This document shows positions 7,768 to 23,926 of a stretch of 64,000 bases of DNA, one piece after another. The notes under the pieces were generated by a model. That model saw nothing but the letters and a program-made list of their open reading frames with translations, did no database searches and was not told the DNA's origin. Each line of letters starts with the position of its first letter. Position 1 is the stretch's first letter. The DNA is from Alphaproteobacteria bacterium (lineage in GTDB: Bacteria > Pseudomonadota > Alphaproteobacteria > UBA6615): positions 186,001 through 250,000 of the forward strand of contig JBDXCV010000013.1 in assembly GCA_039980135.1 (NCBI GenBank), read 5' to 3'. A program made the position numbers and the translations under genes.

Positions 7768-8364
7768 TTACTGGGCCTGCATGGCCAGAATGGCCGTCGT
7801 GCGGGGGCGGTAGATCGCCTGGTAGTAAAGGCGTTGCGGCGGAATCATGAGGGGCAACAGGAACGGCTCATAGTCGAAATAGACCTCCGTGATGACCAGC
7901 CCCTCACCCTCGTCCACATTGAAATCCTCAGGCAGGACGGCCGGATCGCCAGGCATACCGATCTGGCTCGGATCGGTCACATTGCCGGCGCCGATCTGCT
8001 GCCACAGCACCTCCGGGCCGGTATCCTCGCCTGTCACCGAGGTGACGATGATGTTGCCGCCGTCGAACAGATCGAAGGGCCGGCCGATCTGGTCGGCGGC
8101 GGCGAAATAATCATCGAAATCCGTCTCGTCCAGCGCTTCGGCCCGGGCCACGAAGTCTCCGACGAAACTCGTCACCCGCTCCATCTTCTGATTCACCAGC
8201 GCGAAACGCGCAAACTCGACGCCGCCCATCAGCAGGCCGACGAGAATCGGCATGGCGAATGCGAATTCGAGCATCACGCCGCCGCGCAGGTCTTGTAGAA
8301 ATCGTCTGAAACCCGTTCCTGCTAAGGGTTTTCGGGTCAGTTCGCCCTTATTGAATAATGCCAT
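7768..8364 (-). CDS. TadE/TadF-like pseudopilin
   Basis: 198 residues with the TadE layout. A short basic N terminus precedes a Gly-containing processing region and a hydrophobic helix (GVMLEFAFAMPILVGLLMGG, with the Glu after the Met/Leu typical of prepilin processing). A periplasmic domain follows. ATG at 8364 is chosen because GGAGG sits six bases before it; earlier in-frame ATGs exist. It overlaps the preceding TadE-like gene by 17 bases, so the two are coupled and probably act as paired minor pilins of the Tad pilus. Confidence 0.8.
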   Translation of the reverse strand: MALFNKGELTRKPLAGTGFRRFLQDLRGGVMLEFAFAMPILVGLLMGGVEFARFALVNQKMERVTSFVGDFVARAEALDETDFDDYFAAADQIGRPFDLFDGGNIIVTSVTGEDTGPEVLWQQIGAGNVTDPSQIGMPGDPAVLPEDFNVDEGEGLVITEVYFDYEPFLLPLMIPPQRLYYQAIYRPRTTAILAMQAQ

Positions 8365-8989
8365 CGCCATCCTCCAGGTCATACGGCTCGTTGCGCACGG
8401 CGATGCTGGCGACGAGCTGGATCACGTTGTCGTCGCCGCCGATCAGGTGGCTGAGGAAACCCGTCAGGGACGGCGCGTCGTAGGTTACCCGGTAGAGCAC
8501 CACCTCACCCGACTGGCCCGCGCTGGCCAGGCCCTGATCCGGGTCCCACTGGCTGTTTCCGTTGATATCGGTGTAGGTCTCGCCGACGTCATACACCCCG
8601 TTGAACGGCGGGCCGTCGACGAAAGGCTCCGGTGCACCGATGACGTCGAAGCTGCCATAGGTCAGGACATCTACCTGCGCCTCGTCCGTGTCCACCAGGC
8701 CGATGGTCCGGTCGGCGATGATGTCCTGGATGATACTCAGCCGTTCGGCCTCGTCCTGGCCGGTGACGCCGTACCGGGCCGCATCGCGCACCGCACCCTC
8801 CATCAGGGCCTCCGTCGACAGGATCATGCCGATCTCCATGGTGCCCAGAATGGTGAGAATGAAGAGTGGCCCGGTGAGCGCGAATTCGACCCCCGCAACA
8901 CCCGACTGATCTCGTCCGAATTTATCGAAAATTCTATTTAATACAGATAGTTGAGGTTTACTTCCTGATAACCTGGTTGAATTTATCAT
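8348..8989 (-). CDS. tadE: TadE-like pseudopilin with a calcium-loop-like insertion
   Basis: 213 residues. It has the TadE motif GVAGVEFALTGPLFILTILG (about 31-50) with the Glu that follows the prepilin-peptidase site, then a periplasmic region. Residues 130-153 read NGVYDVGE then DINGNSQWDPDQG, an Asp/Asn/Gly pattern like EF-hand or dockerin calcium loops, which is unusual in this family. AGGATG upstream supports ATG at 8989. It is the first gene of a leftward pair and is divergent from tadD with only 32 bases between the start codons. Confidence 0.8.
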   Translation of the reverse strand: MINSTRLSGSKPQLSVLNRIFDKFGRDQSGVAGVEFALTGPLFILTILGTMEIGMILSTEALMEGAVRDAARYGVTGQDEAERLSIIQDIIADRTIGLVDTDEAQVDVLTYGSFDVIGAPEPFVDGPPFNGVYDVGETYTDINGNSQWDPDQGLASAGQSGEVVLYRVTYDAPSLTGFLSHLIGGDDNVIQLVASIAVRNEPYDLEDGDGIIQ

Positions 8990-9021: not shown

Positions 9022-9873
9022 ATGACCCTCGTTGAACGACTGAAACAGCACCCTGCCCGCCTCACCCTCGCGGCCGGCCTTCTGCTTTCCGCCTGTGCCC
9101 CGGCCGCCCATACCGACGGCGTGTCCGGCGGCGGCAGCGACACCATGCTGCGGATCGGTGACACGGCCCGCGATGCCGGTGATATCTCCGCCGCGATTCC
9201 GATTTACCGCCGCGCCCACATGCTGGCCCCGCTGGAACTCGAACCGTTGCTGCGCCTGGCCAACACCCTGAGTGGTGTCGGCGCCCATCGCGAGGCCGGG
9301 AACGCCTGGAAACGCGCACTCCTGATCGAACCGCGCAGCTTCGATGCCCGACTCGGCTACGGCGAGACCCTGGCCGCGCTCGATCAGCCCATTCTGGCGC
9401 TGGAGCAGTTCCGGCTGGCTGCCGAACTCGGCCAGAGCGCCGACATGTTCAACGGCATGGGCGTGGCCCACGATCTGCTGGGCGATGCCCCGGCGGCGCA
9501 GCTTGCCTACCGCAAGGGCCTGGGCGACGAACGCAGCCTTAAGCTGCTCAACAATCTGGGGCTTTCCCTGGCGCTTTCGGGCGAATATGACGAGGCAATC
9601 GCGATCCTGGAGGAGGCCAGCGGCTTCCCGGCTGCGGGTTCCCGCCACCGTACCAACCTGGCGCTTGCATATGCCCTTTCGGGCGAGGCCGGACGTGCCC
9701 GCGCGATCATGGCCATGGATACCGACGAGGTGTCGGCCCAGCGCGCGCAGGCCTTCTACACGATGCTCGCCAGCCTTCCCGACCACGAATCCCGGGTTGC
9801 AGCGGTCGGCACCTACAGCGCGGTCCGTGACAACGGAACGCGCAGCATCGAAAACCCGCGCCGCGTGCGGTAG
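9022..9873 (+). CDS. tadD: TPR-repeat lipoprotein, TadD-like
   Basis: 283 residues. A lipoprotein signal ends at LLSAC (lipid-modified Cys25). A run of tetratricopeptide repeats fills about residues 40-250, recognisable by repeated A-x-x-x-Y/W-x-x-A patterns (AIPIYRRAHMLAPLE, AGNAWKRALLIEPRS). TadD is the outer-membrane-associated pilotin-like or assembly lipoprotein of Tad systems. A GAGG ribosome site precedes the ATG. It is convergent with tadC, whose stop is 33 bases away. Confidence 0.8.
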   Translation: MTLVERLKQHPARLTLAAGLLLSACAPAAHTDGVSGGGSDTMLRIGDTARDAGDISAAIPIYRRAHMLAPLELEPLLRLANTLSGVGAHREAGNAWKRALLIEPRSFDARLGYGETLAALDQPILALEQFRLAAELGQSADMFNGMGVAHDLLGDAPAAQLAYRKGLGDERSLKLLNNLGLSLALSGEYDEAIAILEEASGFPAAGSRHRTNLALAYALSGEAGRARAIMAMDTDEVSAQRAQAFYTMLASLPDHESRVAAVGTYSAVRDNGTRSIENPRRVR

Positions 9874-9892: not shown

Positions 9893-9924
9893 GCTGCGGG
9901 GTGGCTCACAACACGCCCCGCAGC
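9893..9924. other. GC-rich inverted repeat between convergent tadD and tadC
   Basis: GCTGCGGGG and CCCCGCAGC form a 9-base stem around a 14-base loop. It covers the last codons of tadC and the region after the tadD stop. The position suits a bidirectional transcription end, but there is no T-tract on either side. Confidence 0.35.
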
Positions 9925-10877
9925 GCATCGATCGTCTGTAGCGCGCCCGGGCCGATCAACACCACGAACAGGGCCGGCATGATGAAGAGGATCATCGGGA
10001 CGGTGAGCACCGCGGGAAGCCGCGCCGCCTTCTCTTCCGCCTTCAGCAGGCGATTGGTCCGCATTTCCGACGACAGGACCCGCAACGCCTGGGACAGCGG
10101 TGTGCCGTAGCGCTCGGTCTGGGCGAGCGTGTTGACCAGGCCGCGCATGCCCGACACCCGGACCCGGCGGGCCAGGTTCTGCAGGGCCTGACTGCGATCG
10201 GGCAGGAAACCCAGTTCGATCGACGTCAGGCTGATCTCATCGGCGAATTCCGGCCAGGACTGGCGCAATTCTCGTCCCACCCGCTCCAGTGCGGCGTCAA
10301 GGCTCAGACCCGCCTCCGCGCAGATCACCATCAGGTCGAGCCCGTCGGGCATCGCCTTGGTGATCTTCTGCTTGCGTTTCGAGATCGTGTTGGCCGTGAA
10401 CAGATCCGGCGCATACGCGCCCAGAATTACCGCCAGCAGCGCGCAAAAAAGCTTGCCCATGGGCCCCATATCGAAGACCGGGAGCAGATACAGGAAAATG
10501 ACCGCGACCAGCCCGAAGGCGAGCGGTAATGCGAATTTGAGAAACAGGTAGACGACCATCGCGTCCTTGCCGCGCCAGCCGGCCTGCAGGAGTTTCTCGC
10601 TGATGCGCCGGGCTTGCGTCGATTGCAGCAACCGCAGCCGCTCGACGACGCCGGTGGCCATATTGAGGCCACGGATGCGCATGGGATGGGCCCGCGGTTG
10701 CAAACGCGCCCGGTGCAGGGCCACGCGCCGGTCGGACAGCGAACGCATCCGGGCCCTGATGGGCCGCGGCGCGATCAGGCCCGCCCAGACGGCCAACACG
10801 GCCGCGATCGCCGCCAAGCCGGCGAGCCAGACGACCAACTCCTCCATCGGGATCGGAATCAGCTCTCCGGGGGTCAT
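9906..10877 (-). CDS. tadC: Tad pilus inner-membrane platform protein TadC
   Basis: 323 residues with the type II secretion F (GspF-like) domain and several membrane helices. These are an N-terminal helix, a pair around residues 110-150, and a C-terminal helix near LTVPMILFIMPALFVVL. The conserved cytoplasmic core includes MPDGLDLMVICAEAGLSLDAAL and ERYGTPLSQALR. ATG at 10877 overlaps the tadB stop in an ATGA; an earlier in-frame ATG at 10901 lies inside tadB. With TadB it anchors the TadA ATPase to the assembling pilus. Confidence 0.9.
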   Translation of the reverse strand: MTPGELIPIPMEELVVWLAGLAAIAAVLAVWAGLIAPRPIRARMRSLSDRRVALHRARLQPRAHPMRIRGLNMATGVVERLRLLQSTQARRISEKLLQAGWRGKDAMVVYLFLKFALPLAFGLVAVIFLYLLPVFDMGPMGKLFCALLAVILGAYAPDLFTANTISKRKQKITKAMPDGLDLMVICAEAGLSLDAALERVGRELRQSWPEFADEISLTSIELGFLPDRSQALQNLARRVRVSGMRGLVNTLAQTERYGTPLSQALRVLSSEMRTNRLLKAEEKAARLPAVLTVPMILFIMPALFVVLIGPGALQTIDALRGVL

Positions 10878-11881
10878 ATTTCGAACCTCACCATTTTCCA
10901 CATGATCGCCACGCCGATGAACTGACTGGTGAGCCCAAAGGCGATCAGGGTCGTCCCGCGCGGATCTGTGAACAGGGTCATCACGTAGCCGGTGTTCACG
11001 AAGAAGATGATCGCGAACATGATGAAAGGCAGGCTGCCGAGGATCCAGGCACTCGCCTTCGGTTCGGACGCCATCGCCTTCACACGTTTCTTCATCTGGC
11101 GCCGCTTGCGCAGCACATCAGCGAGATTTTCGAGGGTCTCGCCCAGATTACCGCCGGTCTCTCGCTGGACCGCGATGGATACGACGAAGAATTTGAACTC
11201 CGGCGTGTCGATCCGCGGCACCGCGTCCCACAAGGCGTCTTCCAAGGTTTGTCCGAAACGCACGGCGTCCGTGATGGCCCGAAATTCCTGCCCGACGGGT
11301 TTCGGCATTTCCCGGGCCACGGTCATGATCGATTCCACGACCGGCAGGCCGGAGCGGATACCGCGAACGATCAGGTCGATCGATTCCGGGAACTGCCCCG
11401 TGAAGGCCCGCTGGCGCCGCCCGGCGAGATAGCCGATGAACATGTGGGGCAGGAGCAACCCGCCGGCGCAGCCGCCGAGAATCGAGACGGGCGTGGAGAA
11501 CCCGAACAGGAAAGACATCGTGGTTCCGGTCGAGGCACCGACGATAAGGCAGGCAACAAGGTATTGCCCGACGCTGATCGAGCGCCCCGTGCGTTTCAGC
11601 CGGCGGCGCAGCATCTCGCGGCGTGGCACCAGGCGCTTGAGGATACGGTCGACCGACGGCAGCGAACTGTCATGCTGGGCCAGCCGCAAGGTCGGCGTGC
11701 CGTCCGCCGCCACATTCGGCTGCCAGCGGCGCATGACGCCGGACAATCGCTTGTTGGTCTGGCGCTGTTCGCCGAACACCAGAATCCCGCCGACCACCGA
11801 CAGACACACCGTCGCCAGCACCACATTCGCGATCATGACCGCAACCGATATATCCACCGAGCCGAACATCGTTCCGTTCAT
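10874..11881 (-). CDS. tadB: Tad pilus inner-membrane platform protein TadB
   Basis: 335 residues. A GspF-type domain contains FPESIDLIVRGIRSGLPVVE and the QRETGGNLGETLENLADVLR motif seen in TadB/TadC. Membrane helices are an N-terminal one, a pair near residues 105-145 and two at the C terminus. It starts 13 bases after tadA, preceded by a G-rich ribosome site. It partners with TadC to form the platform on which Flp subunits are extruded. Confidence 0.92.
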   Translation of the reverse strand: MNGTMFGSVDISVAVMIANVVLATVCLSVVGGILVFGEQRQTNKRLSGVMRRWQPNVAADGTPTLRLAQHDSSLPSVDRILKRLVPRREMLRRRLKRTGRSISVGQYLVACLIVGASTGTTMSFLFGFSTPVSILGGCAGGLLLPHMFIGYLAGRRQRAFTGQFPESIDLIVRGIRSGLPVVESIMTVAREMPKPVGQEFRAITDAVRFGQTLEDALWDAVPRIDTPEFKFFVVSIAVQRETGGNLGETLENLADVLRKRRQMKKRVKAMASEPKASAWILGSLPFIMFAIIFFVNTGYVMTLFTDPRGTTLIAFGLTSQFIGVAIMWKMVRFEI

Positions 11882-11894
11882 CAGCAGCCCCCCA

Positions 11895-13624
<1,730 letters not shown>

Positions 13625-13628
<4 letters not shown>

Positions 13629-14836
13629 GCCCCTGCCTCCGTGCCGGATTTGCGCAACGACAGCAGGCTGCGCCGTTTCTTCGGCAATGGGGCAATGTCC
13701 TGAACGATCTTGCGCAGGCCGACGGCAAACTTTCCACGCCCCGCGATCTGGGCGACCGGTTTGCCCGTGGTCGCCGCGCCACCCGCCTTGGAGTCTTCGG
13801 GCAACCGCGCGATCACCGGCTTGGGCACCCCCTTGGCAAACTGCGCCACGGGAATTCCCTTCGCCCTCCCGATCCGGTTCACAATCACGCCGATGTCCGC
13901 GTCGCGGTTGAGTCCGTCGCAGTAGTTGGCGACACGCATCGTATCGCGCATGCCCGCCAGCGACAGGTCGGACACCACATGAATAAACGAAGCGTCCGAG
14001 ATCACGTTCGAATTCACGTGACAGAGCGTGCGCGGGATGTCGATCCAGACCCAATCGAAACTGCGGCGCAGTTCTTCGATCAGGCGTTCGATCCCCGCGG
14101 CGCTGTAACTCGCATCGCGCGCGAGATCCTCCTCCGCGGCGAGGACAGAGAAATTCGCGGTCTTGGGCACCAGCGCACTCGCCAGAAACAGCCCGTCGAC
14201 GCGGTCGGGATTGCGCAACGTCTCAATCATGCCGCCGGCCGGCACGAGGTCGAGTGACAGGGCGGTGGAACCGAACTGCAGATCGAGATCGACCAGCACC
14301 ACCTTCTGCTTTTGCTCCTCGGCCAGCATCCAGGCACCGTTCGTGGCGGTTGTGGTCGCGCCCACGCCACCGCGCGCGCCGATTGTCACGACAATCTTGC
14401 CGAGTGGCACATCCACGGCTTCGATCACCTGCTGTTCGCGGAACGCGGCGGCCAGCAATGCCGTTTCCAGATCTTCGGGGCTAAGCGGCTTGACCAGATA
14501 GTCGGCCACACCCGCCGCGACGAACTGCTTGTAGAGGCCCAGATCATTGACCGTGCCCAGCGCCACGACCTGGGTTGAGGCCTCGCAGGAATCCGCCAGT
14601 GTCAGAAGTTCTTCGAGCGGGTTCTCGCTGTTCCCGAGATCGACCACCAGCAAATCGGGCGCGCGCGTGCAGTCGAGATAGGTGGCCGCGGCACTCAGCC
14701 CCCCCTCCACCACGGTCGCACCGGGCCAGTGATAGCTGGCGACCTGTTCGATCATCGTCGCGGTCACCACATCAGCGGCGAAGGCCGCCAGGACCACGCC
14801 GCTCTCCCGCCTCGTATCGATCGCTGCAACTGTCAT
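13625..14836 (-). CDS. cpaE: Pilus assembly/localisation ATPase CpaE/TadZ
   Basis: 403 residues. An N-terminal receiver-like domain (about 1-135, with Asp66 in LLVVDLGNS and a Lys in YLVKPL) is followed by a ParA/MinD-type ATPase. The deviant Walker A is GARGGVGATT (153-162). It lacks the Lys of the usual GKT/S step, as in other CpaE/TadZ proteins classed as atypical ATPases. DLDLQFG and WIDIPRTL follow. These proteins mark the pole or site where the Tad machine assembles. It is coupled to cpaF and 2 bases after cpaD. Confidence 0.9.
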
Positions 14837-14838
14837 CG

Positions 14839-15525
14839 CTATTCGTTCGTCTCGACAGCGACCGGGTTTCTGACTTTCCCGGCGCGGTATCGCTGGATTC
14901 CCAGCGACAGCGCCTGCCCGTCTCCCGGCGCCAGGCTTCGCCCGCGCACAAGGTCAGCCGGATCAGCGATCATCAGGCTGAGATTTGTCGCCTGGGCACA
15001 TCCGAAATTCGCATCCGTGAGGTTGCCCGGGTTGGCGCCCGACGGGCGCGACCAGTTCGGGCAGTTCGGCGGCACGGCCACATACCGGCCGACCACCAGT
15101 CGCGCGCCGCCGGCGGGTGCGGCGCCACCGGAGAACATCAGCGCATCCACACCGGGGAGATGGCGCCGCAGGCGTTGCGAAATGGAAGTGGCGCGGGCCT
15201 GGGCCAACGGGTCGAGCCCGCCGGTATCGCCCGTATCGACCAGAAAACGATCGCCGCGGCGCAGGGTCAGCCCCGCCAGGAACGCATCGAGATGAAACCG
15301 TTCCGACGTCGAGAGCACACTGGTGCCCGGTTCGAACAAGACCGCATGATCAAGCGAGACCCATCGCACCTGAATATCGCGCGGCGACTGCGCGGGGCTA
15401 AAATCCGCCAGGGACTGTGCGCACCCGGTGACGATCACCGCCGCGACAGCCAGCAATGGCCACCACCGCGAGGGGCGTTTGGTAAAAATACGCCGGTTCC
15501 TGATCACCTTCTGTCGTCGCATCAT
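14839..15525 (-). CDS. cpaD: Tad pilus lipoprotein CpaD-like
   Basis: 228 residues. A basic N terminus and a lipobox VTGC (Cys about 35) show a lipoprotein. The CpaD-type domain includes FLAGLTLRRGDRFLVDTG, VVGRYVAVPPNCPNW and NFGCAQATNLSLMIADPADLVRGR. Two Cys in the C-terminal half probably form a disulfide. AGAGG six bases before ATG 15525 sets the start. It lies between secretin cpaC and cpaE and is likely an outer-membrane partner of the secretin. Confidence 0.88.
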   Translation of the reverse strand: MMRRQKVIRNRRIFTKRPSRWWPLLAVAAVIVTGCAQSLADFSPAQSPRDIQVRWVSLDHAVLFEPGTSVLSTSERFHLDAFLAGLTLRRGDRFLVDTGDTGGLDPLAQARATSISQRLRRHLPGVDALMFSGGAAPAGGARLVVGRYVAVPPNCPNWSRPSGANPGNLTDANFGCAQATNLSLMIADPADLVRGRSLAPGDGQALSLGIQRYRAGKVRNPVAVETNE

Positions 15526-15534
15526 GGTCAACCT

Positions 15535-16953
15535 CTACTCAATCTGAAAACCGCCGGGCCCGGACGCCCCATCAAATTCCGGCACACGCACTTCCCGTTC
15601 GCTCGGGCCTGCCTTCCGGCGTTGGGTCTCGCCATGGACAATCCGGTCGAAGTCGTCGGGAATTTCGAAACCATCCGTCGGTGCCAGCAGCGCATTGCTC
15701 GATACCGGCCGCACCAGATAAGGCGTGACGATAATCACCAGCTCCGTCTCCTGCCGGTTGAACTCGGTCGAGCGGAAGAGCGCGCCGAGGATCGGCAAAT
15801 CCGCAAGGCCGGGGAACTCATTGACGTTCTGATTGCTGTCGGCCTGCAGCAGGCCCGCGATGGCAAAGCTCTGGCCACTCCCGAGCTCGACGGTTGTGTT
15901 TGCGCGCCGGGTCGTGAGTGCCGGGATATTCAATCCGTTCACGTTGACGGCCCCCGAGGACGACAAGGCGCTCACCTCCGGCAGGACCTTCAGGCTGATC
16001 CGGTTGGCGCTAAGGATCGTCGGCGTGAAGGCCAGCGACACGCCAAATGGCTTGAAGCTCACCGTCACTTCACCATCATTGTCCACGACCGGTACCGGGA
16101 ACTCGCCGCCGGCCAGGAAACTCGCTGTCTCGCCCGTCAGCGCCGTGAGGTTCGGTTCGGCGAGAAGCGAAATCAGGCCCTCCGTCTCCAGCGCGTCGAC
16201 GACCCCGGCAACATCCACCGAGCTTGAAATATAGTTGGCCTGGGCCAGCCCCGTGTCCGGCAACCCGCTGATCAGCGTCCGCGCCGGGTTCAGAAAGCCG
16301 CGTCCCGATGCCAATCCGAAAGAGAAAGTTCCCACATCGATCAACGCATCGAAGTTGAACCCCAGCCGCTTGAGGACATTGCGTGACACTTCGGCAATCC
16401 GCACCTGCAGGTTGACCTGGTTCGGCCCCACCACCTGGATCTGGTTCACCACGACTTCGTTCTCGGCCAGGAACCGGGCCGCGATCCGGCGTGCCTCCTC
16501 GGATTCCGTCGCGGAATTGACAAGCCCCGCCAGCATCAGGCCGCCGGGTACCGAGCGCGCCTCGATCGCCGTGTCGGGCAGGACAGAGCGCAGCGACGCG
16601 CTCAACGCGGACACATTGTGGGTGACCATCAGGTTGATATTCGCCAGCACCGCATCGCGGCCATCCAGCGCAAACAGGGACGTCTCCCCCGTCCGCTTCG
16701 CCATGACATAGACGAGGGTCGGGGATTTCATCGAAATATCGGCATAGGCGGGGTTGGCCACGAACACCGCCGAGGCCGGCGCGGGCAGACGCACGAGCGC
16801 GCCCTTGTTGACTTCGATGTCGATGGTCTCGACGCCGGAGCCGACCGTTCGCACCGGGGCTTGCGCCTGTGCGCCGCCAACCCCGATCAACAGCATCGAA
16901 AGCGCCGTGAGCAGACCCAGTGCGGGGGCGAGACGCGAAACAAGCCTGATCAT
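15535..16953 (-). CDS. cpaC: Tad pilus secretin CpaC/RcpA
   Basis: 472 residues with a signal peptide ending near GGAQAQA. A pilus-assembly N-domain (GALVRLPAPASAVFVANPAYAD) and a BON-like stretch follow, then the secretin domain (AEPNLTALTGETASFLAGGEFPVPV, and GLADLPILGALFRS near the C terminus). The product is the outer-membrane channel through which the Flp fibre exits. It overlaps cpaB by 4 bases (ATGA). Confidence 0.93.
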   Translation of the reverse strand: MIRLVSRLAPALGLLTALSMLLIGVGGAQAQAPVRTVGSGVETIDIEVNKGALVRLPAPASAVFVANPAYADISMKSPTLVYVMAKRTGETSLFALDGRDAVLANINLMVTHNVSALSASLRSVLPDTAIEARSVPGGLMLAGLVNSATESEEARRIAARFLAENEVVVNQIQVVGPNQVNLQVRIAEVSRNVLKRLGFNFDALIDVGTFSFGLASGRGFLNPARTLISGLPDTGLAQANYISSSVDVAGVVDALETEGLISLLAEPNLTALTGETASFLAGGEFPVPVVDNDGEVTVSFKPFGVSLAFTPTILSANRISLKVLPEVSALSSSGAVNVNGLNIPALTTRRANTTVELGSGQSFAIAGLLQADSNQNVNEFPGLADLPILGALFRSTEFNRQETELVIIVTPYLVRPVSSNALLAPTDGFEIPDDFDRIVHGETQRRKAGPSEREVRVPEFDGASGPGGFQIE

Positions 16954-17936
16954 TTTCGGCCTCGCTTGAACTCGACGACGGCTGAATTCTCGCCGCGCAC
17001 GACACGAACCTGGTGCAAATTTCCCTTCGAGGCCGGTGCGATCAGCAATCGGCTGACTTCGCTATCCCAGGTGTGTCCCCGGCCGCGCGCGGGTTCTTCG
17101 CCACTGACCAGGCGCGCCAGGATCGGGTTGATATCGAGCGGATCGGTGGATCCGGTGTCCGGAGCGGCCCCAGGGACACTACCCGGCGTGCCAGCCGCAC
17201 CGGCGACGTCCGGCCCGCCGATCGCACCCTCATCGCGCTGCAAACTGCGCAGACTCAGGGACAGGCGGCCGATGTCGGTCACCAGGGAAACGATTTCGAC
17301 CTGTTTGGGGGTGACCTCGAGCGTGACGTTCTTCGACGGGTTGGGTTTCTCGGCCTGATCGTTCGTCGACTGGTCGATGGCCAGCACGCGGACATCGGTC
17401 AACACCGTCTCGGAAGCGCGTCGCACGCGCCCGTTCTGGCCTTCACGTCCCACGGAGTGGGAGAGAATCAGATCGATCCGGTCACCCGGGAACACGAACC
17501 CGGCCACGCCACTGGTCGTGTTAACCCCCACCGTGATGGCGCGGAACCCGGGACGCAGGACTGCCGCCATGAATCCATGCTGGCCCGGCCGCACGACGCG
17601 GGTCTCTGTTATCGGTTCGCCCGCGGCGATGCCCAGCCGCACAACCGTGCCGACAAGGCTTTCGAGATTGGTCTTGCCGTCGACAAGATAGGCGTCCGCG
17701 ACACCGGCGTCGGGCCAAGCCTGCCAACGTAGGTGGGTCTTCTTGATGAGCGTTCCGGCGGGTAGCCCCCGTTTGGCGACAATGATGCGGGTATGGTCCT
17801 TCTTGACCTGCACCTGATTTCGGTTGGCGGCCTCAAGCGCGGCACGCTGGCCCGCAAGCCAGCTGTTCGCGCCGAAGATGGCGCCACCGGCCGCGATCAA
17901 CGCGACCAGGACGAGACCAATCAGTCGTACGTTCAT
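16950..17936 (-). CDS. cpaB: Flp pilus assembly protein CpaB/RcpC
   Basis: 328 residues. An N-terminal membrane helix (about 7-27) is followed by an SAF domain (VAKRGLPAGTLIKKTHLRWQ) and the RcpC/CpaB domain (GFRAITVGVNTTSGVAGFVFPGDRIDLILS). SAF modules in this family are thought to bind carbohydrate in the periplasm and to help the secretin. The ATG at 17936 overlaps the cpaA stop by one base (TGATG). The C-terminal third is Gly/Ala/Pro-rich. Confidence 0.92.
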   Translation of the reverse strand: MNVRLIGLVLVALIAAGGAIFGANSWLAGQRAALEAANRNQVQVKKDHTRIIVAKRGLPAGTLIKKTHLRWQAWPDAGVADAYLVDGKTNLESLVGTVVRLGIAAGEPITETRVVRPGQHGFMAAVLRPGFRAITVGVNTTSGVAGFVFPGDRIDLILSHSVGREGQNGRVRRASETVLTDVRVLAIDQSTNDQAEKPNPSKNVTLEVTPKQVEIVSLVTDIGRLSLSLRSLQRDEGAIGGPDVAGAAGTPGSVPGAAPDTGSTDPLDINPILARLVSGEEPARGRGHTWDSEVSRLLIAPASKGNLHQVRVVRGENSAVVEFKRGRK

Positions 17937-18469
17937 CAGAATGCCTCCAGAGAGCCGAAGAGAATGACCGCACGCGAAACGGCCACATAAAGCGCACCGG
18001 CGAGGATCGCCGCTGCATAGGGCACGACGGCCCGCTCACGGGCGGCCGGCACGGCGATCGCGCCGTCCATCGTCGGAATATGTCGGGCCAGCAGCCGGTT
18101 GAAACCGCCGATGCGGAACCATTCGGCGAAACTCATGATCCCGCCGGTGAGCGTAATGATGACGACCATCGGCAGGACGAGCTCCGTTCCGGCCCACAGG
18201 CTGAGCGCGGCAAGAAGCTTCACGTCGCCCCCGCCCATCCAGCCGCGTGAGTAGAGAAAGACACCGACCGCGAAGACCAGGCCGCCCGCGAAGAGCCCGC
18301 CCCGAAAATCCGCGCCGCCGGCCAGTACAAAAATCGGAAAGCTGGCGGCAATCGCCAGGCTGATGCTGTTGGGAATGCGGTAGCTCCGCAGATCCGTGAC
18401 CGCGGCGGTGACCGCCAGACCCAGAAGGCCGAGCAGAAGAATGATCTGGAGCGAGAAAAATGACGTCAT
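17936..18469 (-). CDS. cpaA: Prepilin peptidase CpaA/TadV
   Basis: 177-residue A24-family aspartyl protease of the inner membrane that processes Flp and the TadE-type pseudopilins. The two catalytic Asp motifs are in TDLRSYRIPN and GMGGGDVKLLAA-type positions (here GWMGGGDVKLLAALS). About five to six membrane helices are visible. The frame stays open to 18658, but the upstream part runs through the pilin gene gap; ATG at 18469, just before the first helix, is the real start. It is the first gene after flp. Confidence 0.92.
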   Translation of the reverse strand: MTSFFSLQIILLLGLLGLAVTAAVTDLRSYRIPNSISLAIAASFPIFVLAGGADFRGGLFAGGLVFAVGVFLYSRGWMGGGDVKLLAALSLWAGTELVLPMVVIITLTGGIMSFAEWFRIGGFNRLLARHIPTMDGAIAVPAARERAVVPYAAAILAGALYVAVSRAVILFGSLEAF

Positions 18470-18563
18470 GTTGATCAGTTCCGAAATCCGTCGGGTGTGT
18501 TCTGGAGCGTGAGTGGCGGACGGCACCTGCCTGGCGCCGCCCGCCGTTTCACTTGTGTGGTGT

Positions 18564-18845
18564 TTACGGGCTACCCGTACCGCCACCCGTGCCGCCGCCG
18601 GTACCTCCACCGGTGCCGCCACCCGTACCGCCACCGGTACCGCCGCCGGTGCCAGCACCAGCCGGCATGTTCGCGACTGCAGTGTCGAGACGTCCCGACA
18701 CAGCCGTGAACATCGTATCCAGCGAGCCCCCCATCAGGGTCAGGGCACCGATCGAGGCAACCGACACAAGTGCGGCGATCAGGCCGTACTCGATGGCGGT
18801 GGCACCCGACTCATCGCGGGAAAGATTTTTAAGAGTTTGGTACAT
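18564..18845 (-). CDS. flp: Flp/Fap-type major pilin with Gly/Thr repeat tail
   Basis: 93 residues. The start MYQTLKNLSRDESGATAIEYGLIAALVSV is a textbook Flp prepilin. The processing site is between Gly14 and Ala15, with Glu19 and Tyr20 following, then a single hydrophobic helix to about residue 42. The surprise is the tail: from about residue 62 the protein is six to seven copies of GTGG/GGGT ending in SP. AAGGAG eight bases before the ATG is a strong ribosome site. It is the first gene of the leftward pilus operon. Confidence 0.93.
   Translation of the reverse strand: MYQTLKNLSRDESGATAIEYGLIAALVSVASIGALTLMGGSLDTMFTAVSGRLDTAVANMPAGAGTGGGTGGGTGGGTGGGTGGGTGGGTGSP
18570..18659 (-). repeat. Degenerate 12-base tandem repeat coding the pilin tail
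   Basis: About seven 12-base units of the type CCGTACCGCCAC (+ strand) encode Gly-Thr-Gly-Gly over and over. The units differ at synonymous third positions, so the tract is not a fresh slippage product. It may still vary in copy number between strains. Confidence 0.8.
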
Positions 18846-19207
18846 CGCTTATCTCCTTGTGGACGCAGTAGTGACGCGGCGAAGCATCGCGCTGCAGGCC
18901 TTAAGGAAGTGTTAAAAACGATGTACAGTTATTGTATTCGTAAGGCATTTTACATGTTGCGAAATGCCGTTGTTACGGTTATTTATTTAATACGATGATA
19001 TATTATTACTATTTTATTTTTAGCAGAAAATTGATTGAAATTTCATCGATATATCTGGCAATCGTCGAGGGAAAGTAAAAACGTTTTAACACGTTGATAT
19101 TATTTTATTTATCACATATCCGGATATCGACATCTTTATCCGATAGAAATTGATGGGAGGGTCACAACACATAAGTATTGACGCACCGAAACAACGCCGC
19201 GGTGCCC
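18846..19207. other. AT-rich intergenic region between flp and the TadG-like gene
   Basis: 362 bases without a credible gene, holding the divergent start regions of flp (leftward) and the VWA gene (rightward). From about 18920 to 19150 the sequence is far richer in A/T than the surrounding coding DNA. It contains several T/A tracts and small palindromes (TGAAATTTCA near 19037, ATATCCGGATAT at 19116). It probably holds the promoters and regulator sites of the pilus operon. I cannot assign -35/-10 boxes with confidence. Confidence 0.6.
19116..19127. promoter_or_regulatory. Perfect 12-base palindrome ATATCCGGATAT
   Basis: The palindrome lies about 80 bases before the VWA gene start and in the AT-rich gap shared with flp. 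Perfect dyad symmetry and position suggest an operator, but no matching regulator can be named. Confidence 0.35.
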
Positions 19208-20797
19208 ATGAAACGTCTCTCCATATTCATGTCCGACATCCTGAGCAGCCTTGCTCTCGGCGCGTTGAGATTGTGGCCCGACCGGCGCGGTGCAGTCGCG
19301 GCCTTCGTGGCGGTGGGAATCGTGCCGACAGTGGGATTCGTGGGCCTGGCGACCGATGCCGCACGCGGCTACATGGTCAAGACGAAGCTGCACCAGGCAC
19401 TGGATGCAGCCGGCCTGGCCGGCGGCCGCGCGATGCTGGAGCCGGACCGGGATGCGGACATACTTCAATTTTTCAACGCAAATTTCCCCGACGGGTATCT
19501 CGGGGCGACGGTCAACGGCCCGAATATCGATGCCGATGAAACAGAAGGACTGCTGACCCTTTCGGCATCAGCCGATATCCCGACCTCCTTCATGCAGGTG
19601 CTCGGTTTCCAGGATATCACCGTGAGTGCGCAAACAGTCGTCCATCGCGCGGTTCGCGGGATGGAGCTTGCGCTGATCATGGACAACACCGGATCCATGC
19701 GTGGCGGCGGCAAGATGGACGCCATGAAACTGGCGGCCCACGACCTCATCGATATTCTCTACGGGGAAGAGGAAACCGTGAACGACTTCTGGGTCTCGCT
19801 GATACCCTATGCCGCCACGGTGAATGTCGGCGCCGGCCGCACGGGCTGGCTGGCCGCCTATGATCCGGCGGAATACCTGCCGCCTGTCTGGGAAGCGGCA
19901 ACGAACTACGCGGCCGATGAATTCGCCAGCTTCAACAATCTTCCCTTCCAGGCTCTGCAGGCAAATGTCGGTGCCCAGCCGGACATCAACCCAGCCGACT
20001 GGCAGGCGTTGACCGCGATCCAGTGGAAAGGCTGCATCGAAGCGCGGAACGCGCCGTTCGATCAGACCGACGATCTGCCCGGCACCCAGCCCTTTGTACA
20101 TCAGTACTGGTCGTCGACCAGCGGCGTTTATACGCCGCAAACCGGCGACAATGACTGGGACTGGGCCAACATCGACGAAGCCAACGGCGCCCAGAATGAC
20201 GGGCTCGGCCCGAATCTCGGTTGCGGACCGTCAATCACACCGCTCGTGGCCGAAAAGACCAGCGTGCATGATTCGATCGACGACATGCAGCCATGGCACC
20301 GCGGCGGCACCATGGCAAATCTCGGTCTGGCCTGGGGTTGGCGCGTTCTGTCCCCAACATGGCAAGGCCTCTGGGGTGGCGCAACACCGTCGGAGTTGCC
20401 GTTGGATTACGACACGCCGCTGATGGACAAGGTTGCGATCATGCTCACCGACGGTGTGAACCAGTGGTACGACTGGCCCACCGGTCTGCCCAACAATCCC
20501 GACGCCGACTACACGGCCTACGGGCGGGTCAGCGAGGGACGGCTCGGCACCACGAATGGCGGCGCGGCGACGGCGGAGATCAACACCCGGATGCTCGCGG
20601 TCTGCAACGCAATGAAGAGCGAGGGCATCATCATCTTTGCGATCACGTTCCAGCTCAACAACAACGCGACCCAGGATTTGTATCGGAACTGCGCCACGTC
20701 GCCGGCGCATTACTTCGACTCCCCCTCGAACGATGAGTTGCAGGACGTGTTCCACGAGATCGGCAATGAGCTGACAAATCTGCGCCTCGCCCAGTAG
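19208..20797 (+). CDS. TadG-like VWA-domain pilus-associated protein
   Basis: 529 residues from ATG 19208; a TTG at 19178 or GTG at 19202 are alternatives, and GGGAGG lies at 19155-19160. The N-terminal basic segment and helix (RRGAVAAFVAVGIVPTVGFVGLATDAARGY) match TadG/TadE-type pilin-like proteins. Then comes a von Willebrand A domain with the MIDAS motif DNTGSM and a later MLTDGVN. A roughly 150-residue insertion rich in Trp, Asp and Asn splits the VWA fold. It is divergent from flp and is likely a secreted or surface component of the Tad pilus. Confidence 0.85.
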   Translation: MKRLSIFMSDILSSLALGALRLWPDRRGAVAAFVAVGIVPTVGFVGLATDAARGYMVKTKLHQALDAAGLAGGRAMLEPDRDADILQFFNANFPDGYLGATVNGPNIDADETEGLLTLSASADIPTSFMQVLGFQDITVSAQTVVHRAVRGMELALIMDNTGSMRGGGKMDAMKLAAHDLIDILYGEEETVNDFWVSLIPYAATVNVGAGRTGWLAAYDPAEYLPPVWEAATNYAADEFASFNNLPFQALQANVGAQPDINPADWQALTAIQWKGCIEARNAPFDQTDDLPGTQPFVHQYWSSTSGVYTPQTGDNDWDWANIDEANGAQNDGLGPNLGCGPSITPLVAEKTSVHDSIDDMQPWHRGGTMANLGLAWGWRVLSPTWQGLWGGATPSELPLDYDTPLMDKVAIMLTDGVNQWYDWPTGLPNNPDADYTAYGRVSEGRLGTTNGGAATAEINTRMLAVCNAMKSEGIIIFAITFQLNNNATQDLYRNCATSPAHYFDSPSNDELQDVFHEIGNELTNLRLAQ

Positions 20798-21762: not shown

Positions 21763-21810
21763 CATTGTGCGTGCGGCATGAATGACCATTGTGCGTGCGG
21801 CATGAATGAC
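21763..21810 (+). repeat. Perfect 24-base tandem duplication before the sulfotransferase gene
   Basis: CATTGTGCGTGCGGCATGAA plus TGAC occurs twice back to back (21763-21786 and 21787-21810). The second copy ends only 13 bases before the chosen start codon. As 24 is eight codons, an overlapping upstream frame from ATG 21778 reads MNDHCACG-MND and stops near 21852 inside the gene. Confidence 0.9.
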
Positions 21811-21823
21811 GGGGAGAATGGCG

Positions 21824-23926
21824 ATGGATATGAGTGTTCTCGACGGGCATAGCGACGGCCCTCTGCTGAACGATCTGCTCGAAAATGCCCGCGAGGCCGT
21901 GCGCGGCGGGCGCCTGAGCGAGGCGCGCGAGACCTGCCGGTCGCTCATCGAAATTCACCCCGATCAGCCCGACGCCTGGTTCCTCTCGGGCATGACCGCA
22001 TTGCGCAACGAGGACTTCGACACGGCACACACCCATTTGTCGCGCGCCGTCGACATGCGGCGCGGTTTCGCGCCGTACCGGATCGCACTCGGCCAAACCC
22101 TGCGGCGAACGGGGGACATCGAAGGGGCCACACGACAGTTTCGCGATGCCTGGATTCTCGACCCGCGCGCCCATGAGGCTGCGTTCGGGCTCGCCGGCGC
22201 AATCGCGGCCCGGGGCAACCGCGCCGAGGCCACCCGTGTCCAGCGGTTCGCGTTTCGATTGCTGCGGCGGAACTTGTTCCGCCAACTCGGCCGGCACCTG
22301 CTTGGCCGCGCCGCGGCCCTCGGTGCGCTTGTGCTGACCCTCCCCGGTAGCGGCGTTTCCCGGGAGTATCGATCTGCGATGACTTGCGCACGCTGGCTGA
22401 CAAACCGTGGCGACCCGAATGCGGCGTTCGCGGCGCTCGAGCGTGCGCGACGAGCGGTGCCGGACGATGCGCGGCCACTCATCGCGTTGGGGCGTCACGC
22501 CTTCGATGCCGAGAATTTCCTTCTGGCCCAGGATTTCCTGGCGCGTGCGCACGAGATCGCCCCGCAGAGCCTCGACGTGCGTTGCGAATATGGCCGTCTG
22601 TTGAGCCGGCTCGCGCGGCATGACGACGCGCTTGCGATGCTCGAAGACGCCCATCTCCAGAATCCCGACGCGATCCGGCCGCTTCTGCTCCTCGGTTGGG
22701 CGCGCTACCGTGCCGGGCAGAGCCAGCGCGCGATTGCAGATTTCGATGCCGTTCTGGAACAGGTCCCGACCTCGATCGAGGCGCATTACGGGCGCGCGCG
22801 CGCCCTCATCGATGCCGGCGCGTTAAGCGACGCCAAGCGCTGGCTTCATCGAACCATCGCGCAATCACCCGGCCATGCCGGCGCCCTGCGCGAACTGGCC
22901 AATTTGAAAGAACTCGCACCGGGCGACAAACAGTTTACCGGCCTCATTTCCGCCATCGAGGACGAGGCCACGACATCATCGCGGCGCGCGGTCCTGCACA
23001 TGGCAGCCGGCGCGAGCTGTCACAATGTAGGGGCCTGTGCCGATGCGTTCGAGCACTACAGGAACGGCAACCTGCTCAAGGATGTGGTCTTCGATATCCG
23101 GGGCTATGCCCGGCATATCGACGGTTTGATCGACAGTTTCGACCGGCAGCATTTCGAACGCACAAAGGGTTGGGGCAACCCCTCCGAAGTACCCGTTTTC
23201 ATCCTCGGCATGCCCCGGTCGGGCACGTCGCTGGTCGAGCAAATTCTAGCCAGCCACTCGCGTGTGCGTGGTGCGGGAGAACGCGAAGAGATGCTGCAGC
23301 TTGCCGATCGGCTGTCCGAGGCGTTGAACGACAGCCGACCCTATCCGGCCTGCGTCGAAGGCCTCACGGCAGATTCCGGAAAGGTTATCGCCGAGCAATT
23401 TCTCGCTGGTCTGAAAAGGGCAGACCCCCATGCCACGCGCATCACCGACAAGATGCCCGGGAACTTTCATCATGTGGGGCTGATCACGACCCTGTTTCCC
23501 AATGCCCAGATTATTCATTGCCGACGGGACCCGCGCGACACCTGTCTGTCCATCTTCTTCGGCGACTTCGTCGGCAGCCACCCCTACTCCTACGACCTCA
23601 CCAACCTGGGCCGCTACTATCGCCAGTATGAGCGGCTGATGGCCCACTGGCACGCGGTGCTGCCGGGCCGCATCCTCGATGTGAAATATGAGGACCTGGT
23701 CGACGCGCAGGAGGACTGGTCGCGCCGAATGGTTTCATTCTGCGGCCTCGACTGGGAGCCCCAATGCCTCGATTTCCATAAAACGACACGCAACGTGAAG
23801 ACCCGCAGCAACGCCCAGGTCCGTCAGCCGATCTATCGCTCATCGATCGAACGCTGGCGGCACTATGAGGCGCATCTCGAGCCTCTGTTCGCGGCACTGG
23901 GGGCGCCGGCCGAGACCTGGCGCTAG
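21824..23926 (+). CDS. TPR-sulfotransferase fusion protein
   Basis: About 700 residues. The first half carries tetratricopeptide repeats (AREAVRGGRLSEARETCRSL, ALRNEDFDTAHTHLSRAV and others). The second half is a sulfotransferase domain. Its PAPS 5'-phosphosulfate loop is ILGMPRSGTSLVEQIL near residue 465, and the 3'-phosphate region is IIHCRRDPRDTCLSIFF. Such proteins transfer sulfate from PAPS to sugars, lipids or protein tyrosines; the acceptor is unknown. ATG 21824 has GGGGAG seven bases upstream; ATG 21806 is the alternative. The stop overlaps the stop of the opposite-strand gene. Confidence 0.88.
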   Translation: MDMSVLDGHSDGPLLNDLLENAREAVRGGRLSEARETCRSLIEIHPDQPDAWFLSGMTALRNEDFDTAHTHLSRAVDMRRGFAPYRIALGQTLRRTGDIEGATRQFRDAWILDPRAHEAAFGLAGAIAARGNRAEATRVQRFAFRLLRRNLFRQLGRHLLGRAAALGALVLTLPGSGVSREYRSAMTCARWLTNRGDPNAAFAALERARRAVPDDARPLIALGRHAFDAENFLLAQDFLARAHEIAPQSLDVRCEYGRLLSRLARHDDALAMLEDAHLQNPDAIRPLLLLGWARYRAGQSQRAIADFDAVLEQVPTSIEAHYGRARALIDAGALSDAKRWLHRTIAQSPGHAGALRELANLKELAPGDKQFTGLISAIEDEATTSSRRAVLHMAAGASCHNVGACADAFEHYRNGNLLKDVVFDIRGYARHIDGLIDSFDRQHFERTKGWGNPSEVPVFILGMPRSGTSLVEQILASHSRVRGAGEREEMLQLADRLSEALNDSRPYPACVEGLTADSGKVIAEQFLAGLKRADPHATRITDKMPGNFHHVGLITTLFPNAQIIHCRRDPRDTCLSIFFGDFVGSHPYSYDLTNLGRYYRQYERLMAHWHAVLPGRILDVKYEDLVDAQEDWSRRMVSFCGLDWEPQCLDFHKTTRNVKTRSNAQVRQPIYRSSIERWRHYEAHLEPLFAALGAPAETWR

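Follow-up and report, generated by a model that had tools for sequence, protein, structure and literature searches.

The closest solved relatives of the pilin described here are the Caulobacter-type PilA chains 8u1k and 8u2b (E 4e-6 to 8u1k). Cleavage of Caulobacter PilA after residue 14 leaves a mature pilin of 45 residues whose N-terminal end is central in the pilus and whose C-terminal end points outward and fits into a pocket of the maturation protein (Mat) of phage phiCb5 (PMC11067988). Here we analysed a 64,000-nucleotide stretch of alphaproteobacterial DNA (the window) with an open reading frame for a pilin of this type that runs on into a long C-terminal repeat. The frame, whose boundaries the preliminary description had placed exactly, starts with ATG and encodes 93 residues, with the following features:

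18564-18845, minus strand: flp, major Tad/Flp pilin prepilin (open reading frame, PF04964 match, sole Flp in the genome)
18852-18858, minus strand: ribosome-binding site AAGGAGA of flp (from the sequence)
18804-18845, minus strand: prepilin leader, residues 1-14, MYQTLKNLSRDESG (sequence and alignment)
18663-18803, minus strand: mature pilin helix, residues 15-61 (AlphaFold helix; matches PilA chains 8u1k/8u2b)
18567-18662, minus strand: C-terminal tail, residues 62-93, AGA(GTGG)x6GTGSP (sequence; coil with pLDDT of about 60)
18582-18653, minus strand: array of six 12-base units, each coding for GTGG and all different in DNA (sequence, repeat finding)

The product matches the Pfam family Flp_Fap (PF04964) over residues 10-50 with 63.4 bits (E 1.7e-17), above the gathering score of 32.2, and a profile search revealed no other Flp gene in the 3.76-Mb genome. 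Prepilin cleavage is predicted between G14 and A15, ahead of ATAIEY (site SG/ATAIEYG, with E at +5 and Y at +6), and G14, E19 and Y20 are invariant across 45 aligned pilins. The mature protein is expected to measure 79 residues versus 45 both for Caulobacter PilA and for the median of the census described below. AlphaFold, supplied with the alignment of 45 pilins, modelled a single helix (2-58, pLDDT >90 in its middle part) followed by a coil with a pLDDT of about 60; the pilin is thus predicted to have no head domain or other fold, and what it has beyond a small helical Flp would be the coil tail. A Foldseek comparison of the single-helix model, an uninformative type of query, with the PDB gave no match.

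A complete leftward tad locus begins with flp and includes a prepilin peptidase, a secretin, an ATPase and inner-membrane proteins, with TadD-like and TadG-like genes on the opposite strand:

17936-18466, minus strand: cpaA/tadV prepilin peptidase (Peptidase_A24)
16950-17936, minus strand: cpaB/rcpC (PF16976)
15535-16953, minus strand: cpaC/rcpA secretin (PF00263, PF13629)
14839-15531, minus strand: cpaD-like protein (open reading frame, lipobox-like VTGC, locus position)
13625-14836, minus strand: cpaE/tadZ (PF13614)
11895-13580, minus strand: cpaF/tadA ATPase (PF00437, 218 bits; the coordinates are those of the stretch scanned and the start is approximate)
9906-11881, minus strand: tadB (10874-11881) and tadC (9906-10901), PF00482 in both
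7768-8989, minus strand: two TadE/TadF-like pseudopilin open reading frames, 7768-8382 and 8348-8989 (hydrophobic leaders by eye; no NCBIfam match)
9022-9873, plus strand: TadD-like TPR protein (TPR-family matches, position)
19178-20797, plus strand: TadG-like VWA protein, divergent from flp (PF13400, PF00092)

The profile score, the leader, the ribosome-binding site and the complete tad locus uphold the initial identification as a Flp pilin, and judged by its sequence and setting the product is a genuine Flp/Fap (Tad, type IVc) pilin.

Two genes past the TadG-like gene lies a gene for a large TPR protein (21806-23926, plus strand) with a C-terminal sulfotransferase-like motif, FILGMPRSGTSLVEQIL, which makes it a possible candidate for a surface-modifying enzyme. 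A perfect two-copy tandem repeat of 24 bases (21763-21810) is found at the start of this gene.

The tail that follows Pro61 comprises 32 residues with six exact GTGG units and a terminal GTGSP, in keeping with the "about 30 extra residues" first estimated. Tandem Repeats Finder reported the array with a period of 12 and 6.5 copies, the top score of 120 being obtained at a period of 36. The six units have six distinct DNA sequences and encode one peptide, and are in this sense the degenerate 12-base units that had been described; the six-unit count in the window genome comes from one assembly. Across the whole 3.76-Mb genome the degenerate two-unit pattern GGNACNGGNGGNGGNACNGGNGGN occurred only in flp (reversed control pattern: 0), on which basis we rejected the GTGG repeat as a general trait of the proteome, and the combined pattern of Flp and tail was found in 0 of 100 shuffles of the window.

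Very recent slippage alone leaves repeat units that are identical in DNA, whereas old units that are free of constraint come to differ in their amino acids. Within the arrays of the window and of two tail-bearing relatives (G022 and G002), every pairwise difference between units falls at a third codon position (30/30, 22/22 and 4/4, respectively) and all unit-to-unit differences are synonymous. All four third-position columns vary in the window array, the chance of hitting exactly those four among twelve being 1/495. Because the differences between units are confined to third positions, the Gly-Thr-Gly-Gly composition looks selected, that is, kept at the protein level as the preliminary description had proposed. 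Purifying selection is thus supported for the composition of the tail by three array-bearing genomes, and we limit the claim to composition, leaving out length and presence, because the long GTGG array is carried by these three genomes only.

Comparison of the repeat number between related genomes, as had been suggested, gave six, five and three full GTGG units in the window genome, G022 and G002, with protein lengths of 93, 88 and 81 residues. The DNA of the pilin core is 79% identical to the window in the five-unit genome and 88% in the three-unit genome. G002 belongs to the same genus as the window genome (CpaF 90% identical) and G022 to another (84%); CpaF was detected in 9 of the 24 genomes of the family at the threshold used, and the tail in the window genome, G002 and G022. 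Two of these three genomes are metagenome assemblies (L033 and L036 being the records of G002 and G022). Since the pilus contig of G022 is only 15 kb long and the other five genomes of its genus have no CpaF match, lateral transfer or misbinning is possible in G022. An artefact of assembly or a false gene, in which either the repeat or the reading frame would be spurious, is barely credible: short tandem repeats are indeed prone to misassembly of their length, but the tail recurs with diverged DNA in two other genomes, and the gene has a good Pfam match, a ribosome-binding site and a fitting locus context. The refutation by assembly error that had been contemplated for the tail fails on the same two genomes, which carry it with fewer units, and we rejected an artefact as regards the existence of the tail.

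The nearest tail-less pilins, from other genera of the same family (G018, G012 and G014), end in ...AMPST, ...AMPAT and ...VMPAT, respectively, and the tailed ones run on as ...NMP, the array and GTG[ST]P. As the tail-less pilins stop at the same Met-Pro, the array appears to have been inserted after the ancestral Met-Pro, ahead of the stop codon, and the comparison identifies insertion and expansion at this ancestral end as the origin of the tail. The unit number varies between species, probably by slippage or recombination.

The 3' end of the array and the sequence downstream of it bear on a role at the RNA level. Eight repeat codons (residues 82-89; 18579-18602, minus strand) are identical in DNA in the three genomes, synonymous sites included (codon shuffling, uncorrected for relatedness: P 9e-5 across the three genomes together and 0.006-0.014 by pair), which exceeds the agreement between the window and G022 at the four-fold sites of the pilin core (9/30). 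The 3' end of the array seems stable, and units seem to be gained or lost towards the 5' end. Between flp and the next gene there is a further element:

18515-18545, minus strand: intercistronic RNA hairpin lying between the flp stop and the cpaA start, 13-bp stem and AGGCA loop (folding versus shuffles)

This hairpin has a z of -4.23, with 0/200 shuffles folding equally well, and recurs at the corresponding position in G002 and G022, three sequences in all, with an unchanged loop and a mostly retained stem, in which several changes are one-sided, one is two-sided and one pair is broken. It may uncouple a high expression of the pilin from the expression of the assembly genes, and is possibly an attenuator or a 3' stabiliser of the pilin message. 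We consider it very unlikely that the repeat is kept mainly for RNA or DNA, where it would give the flp message a structured, GC-rich 3' end for regulation or stability. The identity of the eight-codon run at all positions and the strong hairpin downstream of the stop codon speak for such a role, but the repeat does not include the hairpin, the array varies freely at its other third positions, and its own folding surpasses that of shuffles by a small margin (z -2.3, -2.0 and -1.3), with predicted structures that differ among the three sequences. With z between -1.3 and -2.3, an origin of the repeat in RNA structure was rejected as weak.

In 84,980 species genomes we searched for an IEYG motif with GTGGGTG after it at the right spacing, a pattern that undercounts because it fixes ATC for Ile and the exact tail, and obtained five stretches: L033 and L036, L032, L034 and L035. 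L034 is a chance match outside any pilin frame and L035 one in a ketoacyl-synthase-like frame, and both were discarded. L032, from Rhodospirillales, is a true Flp with a shorter version of the tail, ...GGGTGGGTGGSTGGGI. Among the sequences scanned, the long exact GTGG array is restricted to the window genome, G002 and G022. Plasmid-borne relatives amounted to 99 matching records, none covering 80% of the query; among the matches listed, they end near residue 62 or earlier and none has the tail.

A census of 154 mature Flp-type sequences (best matches drawn from 385 alphaproteobacterial genomes, together with 60 relatives, and hence biased towards the type in the window) gave a median mature length of 45, with at least 50 residues in 25 and at least 70 in five. 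Extensions were Gly/Thr/Ser-rich in 15 cases, Pro-Ala-rich in six and of other kinds in ten. The window tail is the longest Gly/Thr tail in the census and, among tails of all kinds, is exceeded in length by one, the unrelated, non-repetitive tail of L011. Mapped onto a poorly resolved tree of 42 helix columns, tail labels clustered no more tightly than shuffled ones (10 changes for the Gly/Thr/Ser class versus a shuffled mean of 10.7), and simple C-terminal extensions seem, from these sequences, to have been gained and lost often in alphaproteobacterial Flp pilins. L009 (G051) encodes at 1504-1740 on the plus strand a Flp pilin with a Ser/Thr-rich tail of 27 residues, SPLGTGTDSSTTTTGADTSTTTTSTGG, which is a candidate glycosylated tail. 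Pro-Ala repeat ends (PAPAPAPAP and similar) were found in the Flp pilins at 1489-1698 of L041, 1483-1686 of L056 and 1501-1695 of L045, and by their sequences are a second recurrent type of simple Flp tail. The preliminary remark that no Flp with such a tail is known stands insofar as we found no description of a Gly-Thr repeat tail on a Flp pilin in the open-access literature; it does not extend to the kind of tail, since Gly/Thr/Ser-rich or Pro-Ala extensions recur. Similarly, the proposed search for C-terminal (GTGG)n tails uncovered the long array in two more genomes and a shorter one in L032, but also simple tails elsewhere.

These distributions raise the possibility that the tail is a nearly neutral appendage: any short, soluble and uncharged C-terminal extension would be tolerated, slippage would make and lose tails without specific function, and selection would merely remove residues that disturb assembly. 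Gly/Thr, Ser/Thr, Pro-Ala and poly-Gly tails are scattered on the pilin tree with a clustering close to that of shuffled labels, and relatives differ in repeat number, as this reading predicts. Pure tolerance would, however, admit Ser, Ala, Asn or Asp, as other tails show, and the three genomes keep strictly to GTGG even though their third positions have diverged strongly. We therefore regard neutrality as conceivable and as a serious rival, with the strict GTGG arguing against neutral composition and not against neutral length.

O-glycosylation of the tail threonines, giving the pilus a glycan coat, is in our estimate quite unlikely. The tail has seven Thr, proteins with a Wzy_C domain are encoded in 3/3 tail-bearing genomes, C-terminal glycosylation occurs in other type IV pilins (PMC13234629), and Aggregatibacter Flp1, like the window pilin the major Flp pilin of a tad system, is reported to be glycosylated (PMC6182317). 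On the other hand, the Wzy_C domain also spans O-antigen ligases and polymerases, which leaves the type of these proteins ambiguous; two of them were scanned without a match to any NCBIfam pilin glycosylation family, and no glycosyltransferase gene adjoins flp among the neighbours scanned. A search of the genome for the PglL_A domain (PF15864) gave no match, and neither did its positive controls. To our knowledge, Aggregatibacter Flp1 is without a tail of the GTGG type.

Taking these results together, the likely overall explanation is that flp encodes a major Tad pilin whose C-terminus has been extended by in-frame 12-base units into a flexible tail displayed on the pilus. In-frame gain of such units past the ancestral Met-Pro end, before the stop codon, would have lengthened the C-terminus; by homology, CpaA would cut the prepilin after Gly14 and CpaF would polymerise the pilin via its normal helix. 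Because the C-terminus of the Caulobacter pilin faces outward and docks a phage, we infer that the window pilus has a coat that is flexible and uncharged, in which a Gly/Thr chain of 32 residues would project from each subunit. Display of the tail at the surface, as originally envisaged, is well supported by analogy with the outward C-terminal end of the Caulobacter pilin (PMC11067988), and its flexibility is consistent with the predicted coil, although the tail might be clipped off after assembly. Repeat number shifts between species while purifying selection, supported by the codon positions, holds the GTGG unit, and the resulting hydrophilic brush would cover the C-terminal docking surface that the pilin offers to pilus phages and partner surfaces. 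We tentatively hypothesize that this brush alters adhesion, bundling or phage binding while leaving the polymerising helix untouched. That the length-varying, sequence-constrained tail on each subunit is a selected surface shield, whose number of units adjusts phage adsorption or bundling on a fixed helix, seems rather unlikely. Few pilins are as small as those of Tad pili, and naturally occurring long tails of variable repeat length point to a filament that can accommodate an added coat and perhaps exploit it; the tail offers a simple handle on how the pilus surface governs adhesion and phage binding.

Compared with known systems, the window pilin shares with Caulobacter PilA the leader, the G/ATAIEY cleavage site, the single long helix and the tad locus context, but differs in its greater expected mature length and in the (GTGG)n tail that it alone carries. 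Four other Flps, with the extensions SPLGTGTDSSTTTTGADTSTTTTSTGG (L009/G051), GGTGGGTGGSTGGGI (L032), PAPAPAPAP (L041) and GGGTDGGT (L024/G035), resemble it in having a low-complexity, mostly uncharged extension past mature residue 45; their tails are shorter or less regular and of other composition. Set against these sequences, the window tail appears to lie at the upper extreme of length in a spectrum of simple, flexible Flp tails and does not look like a system of a new kind.
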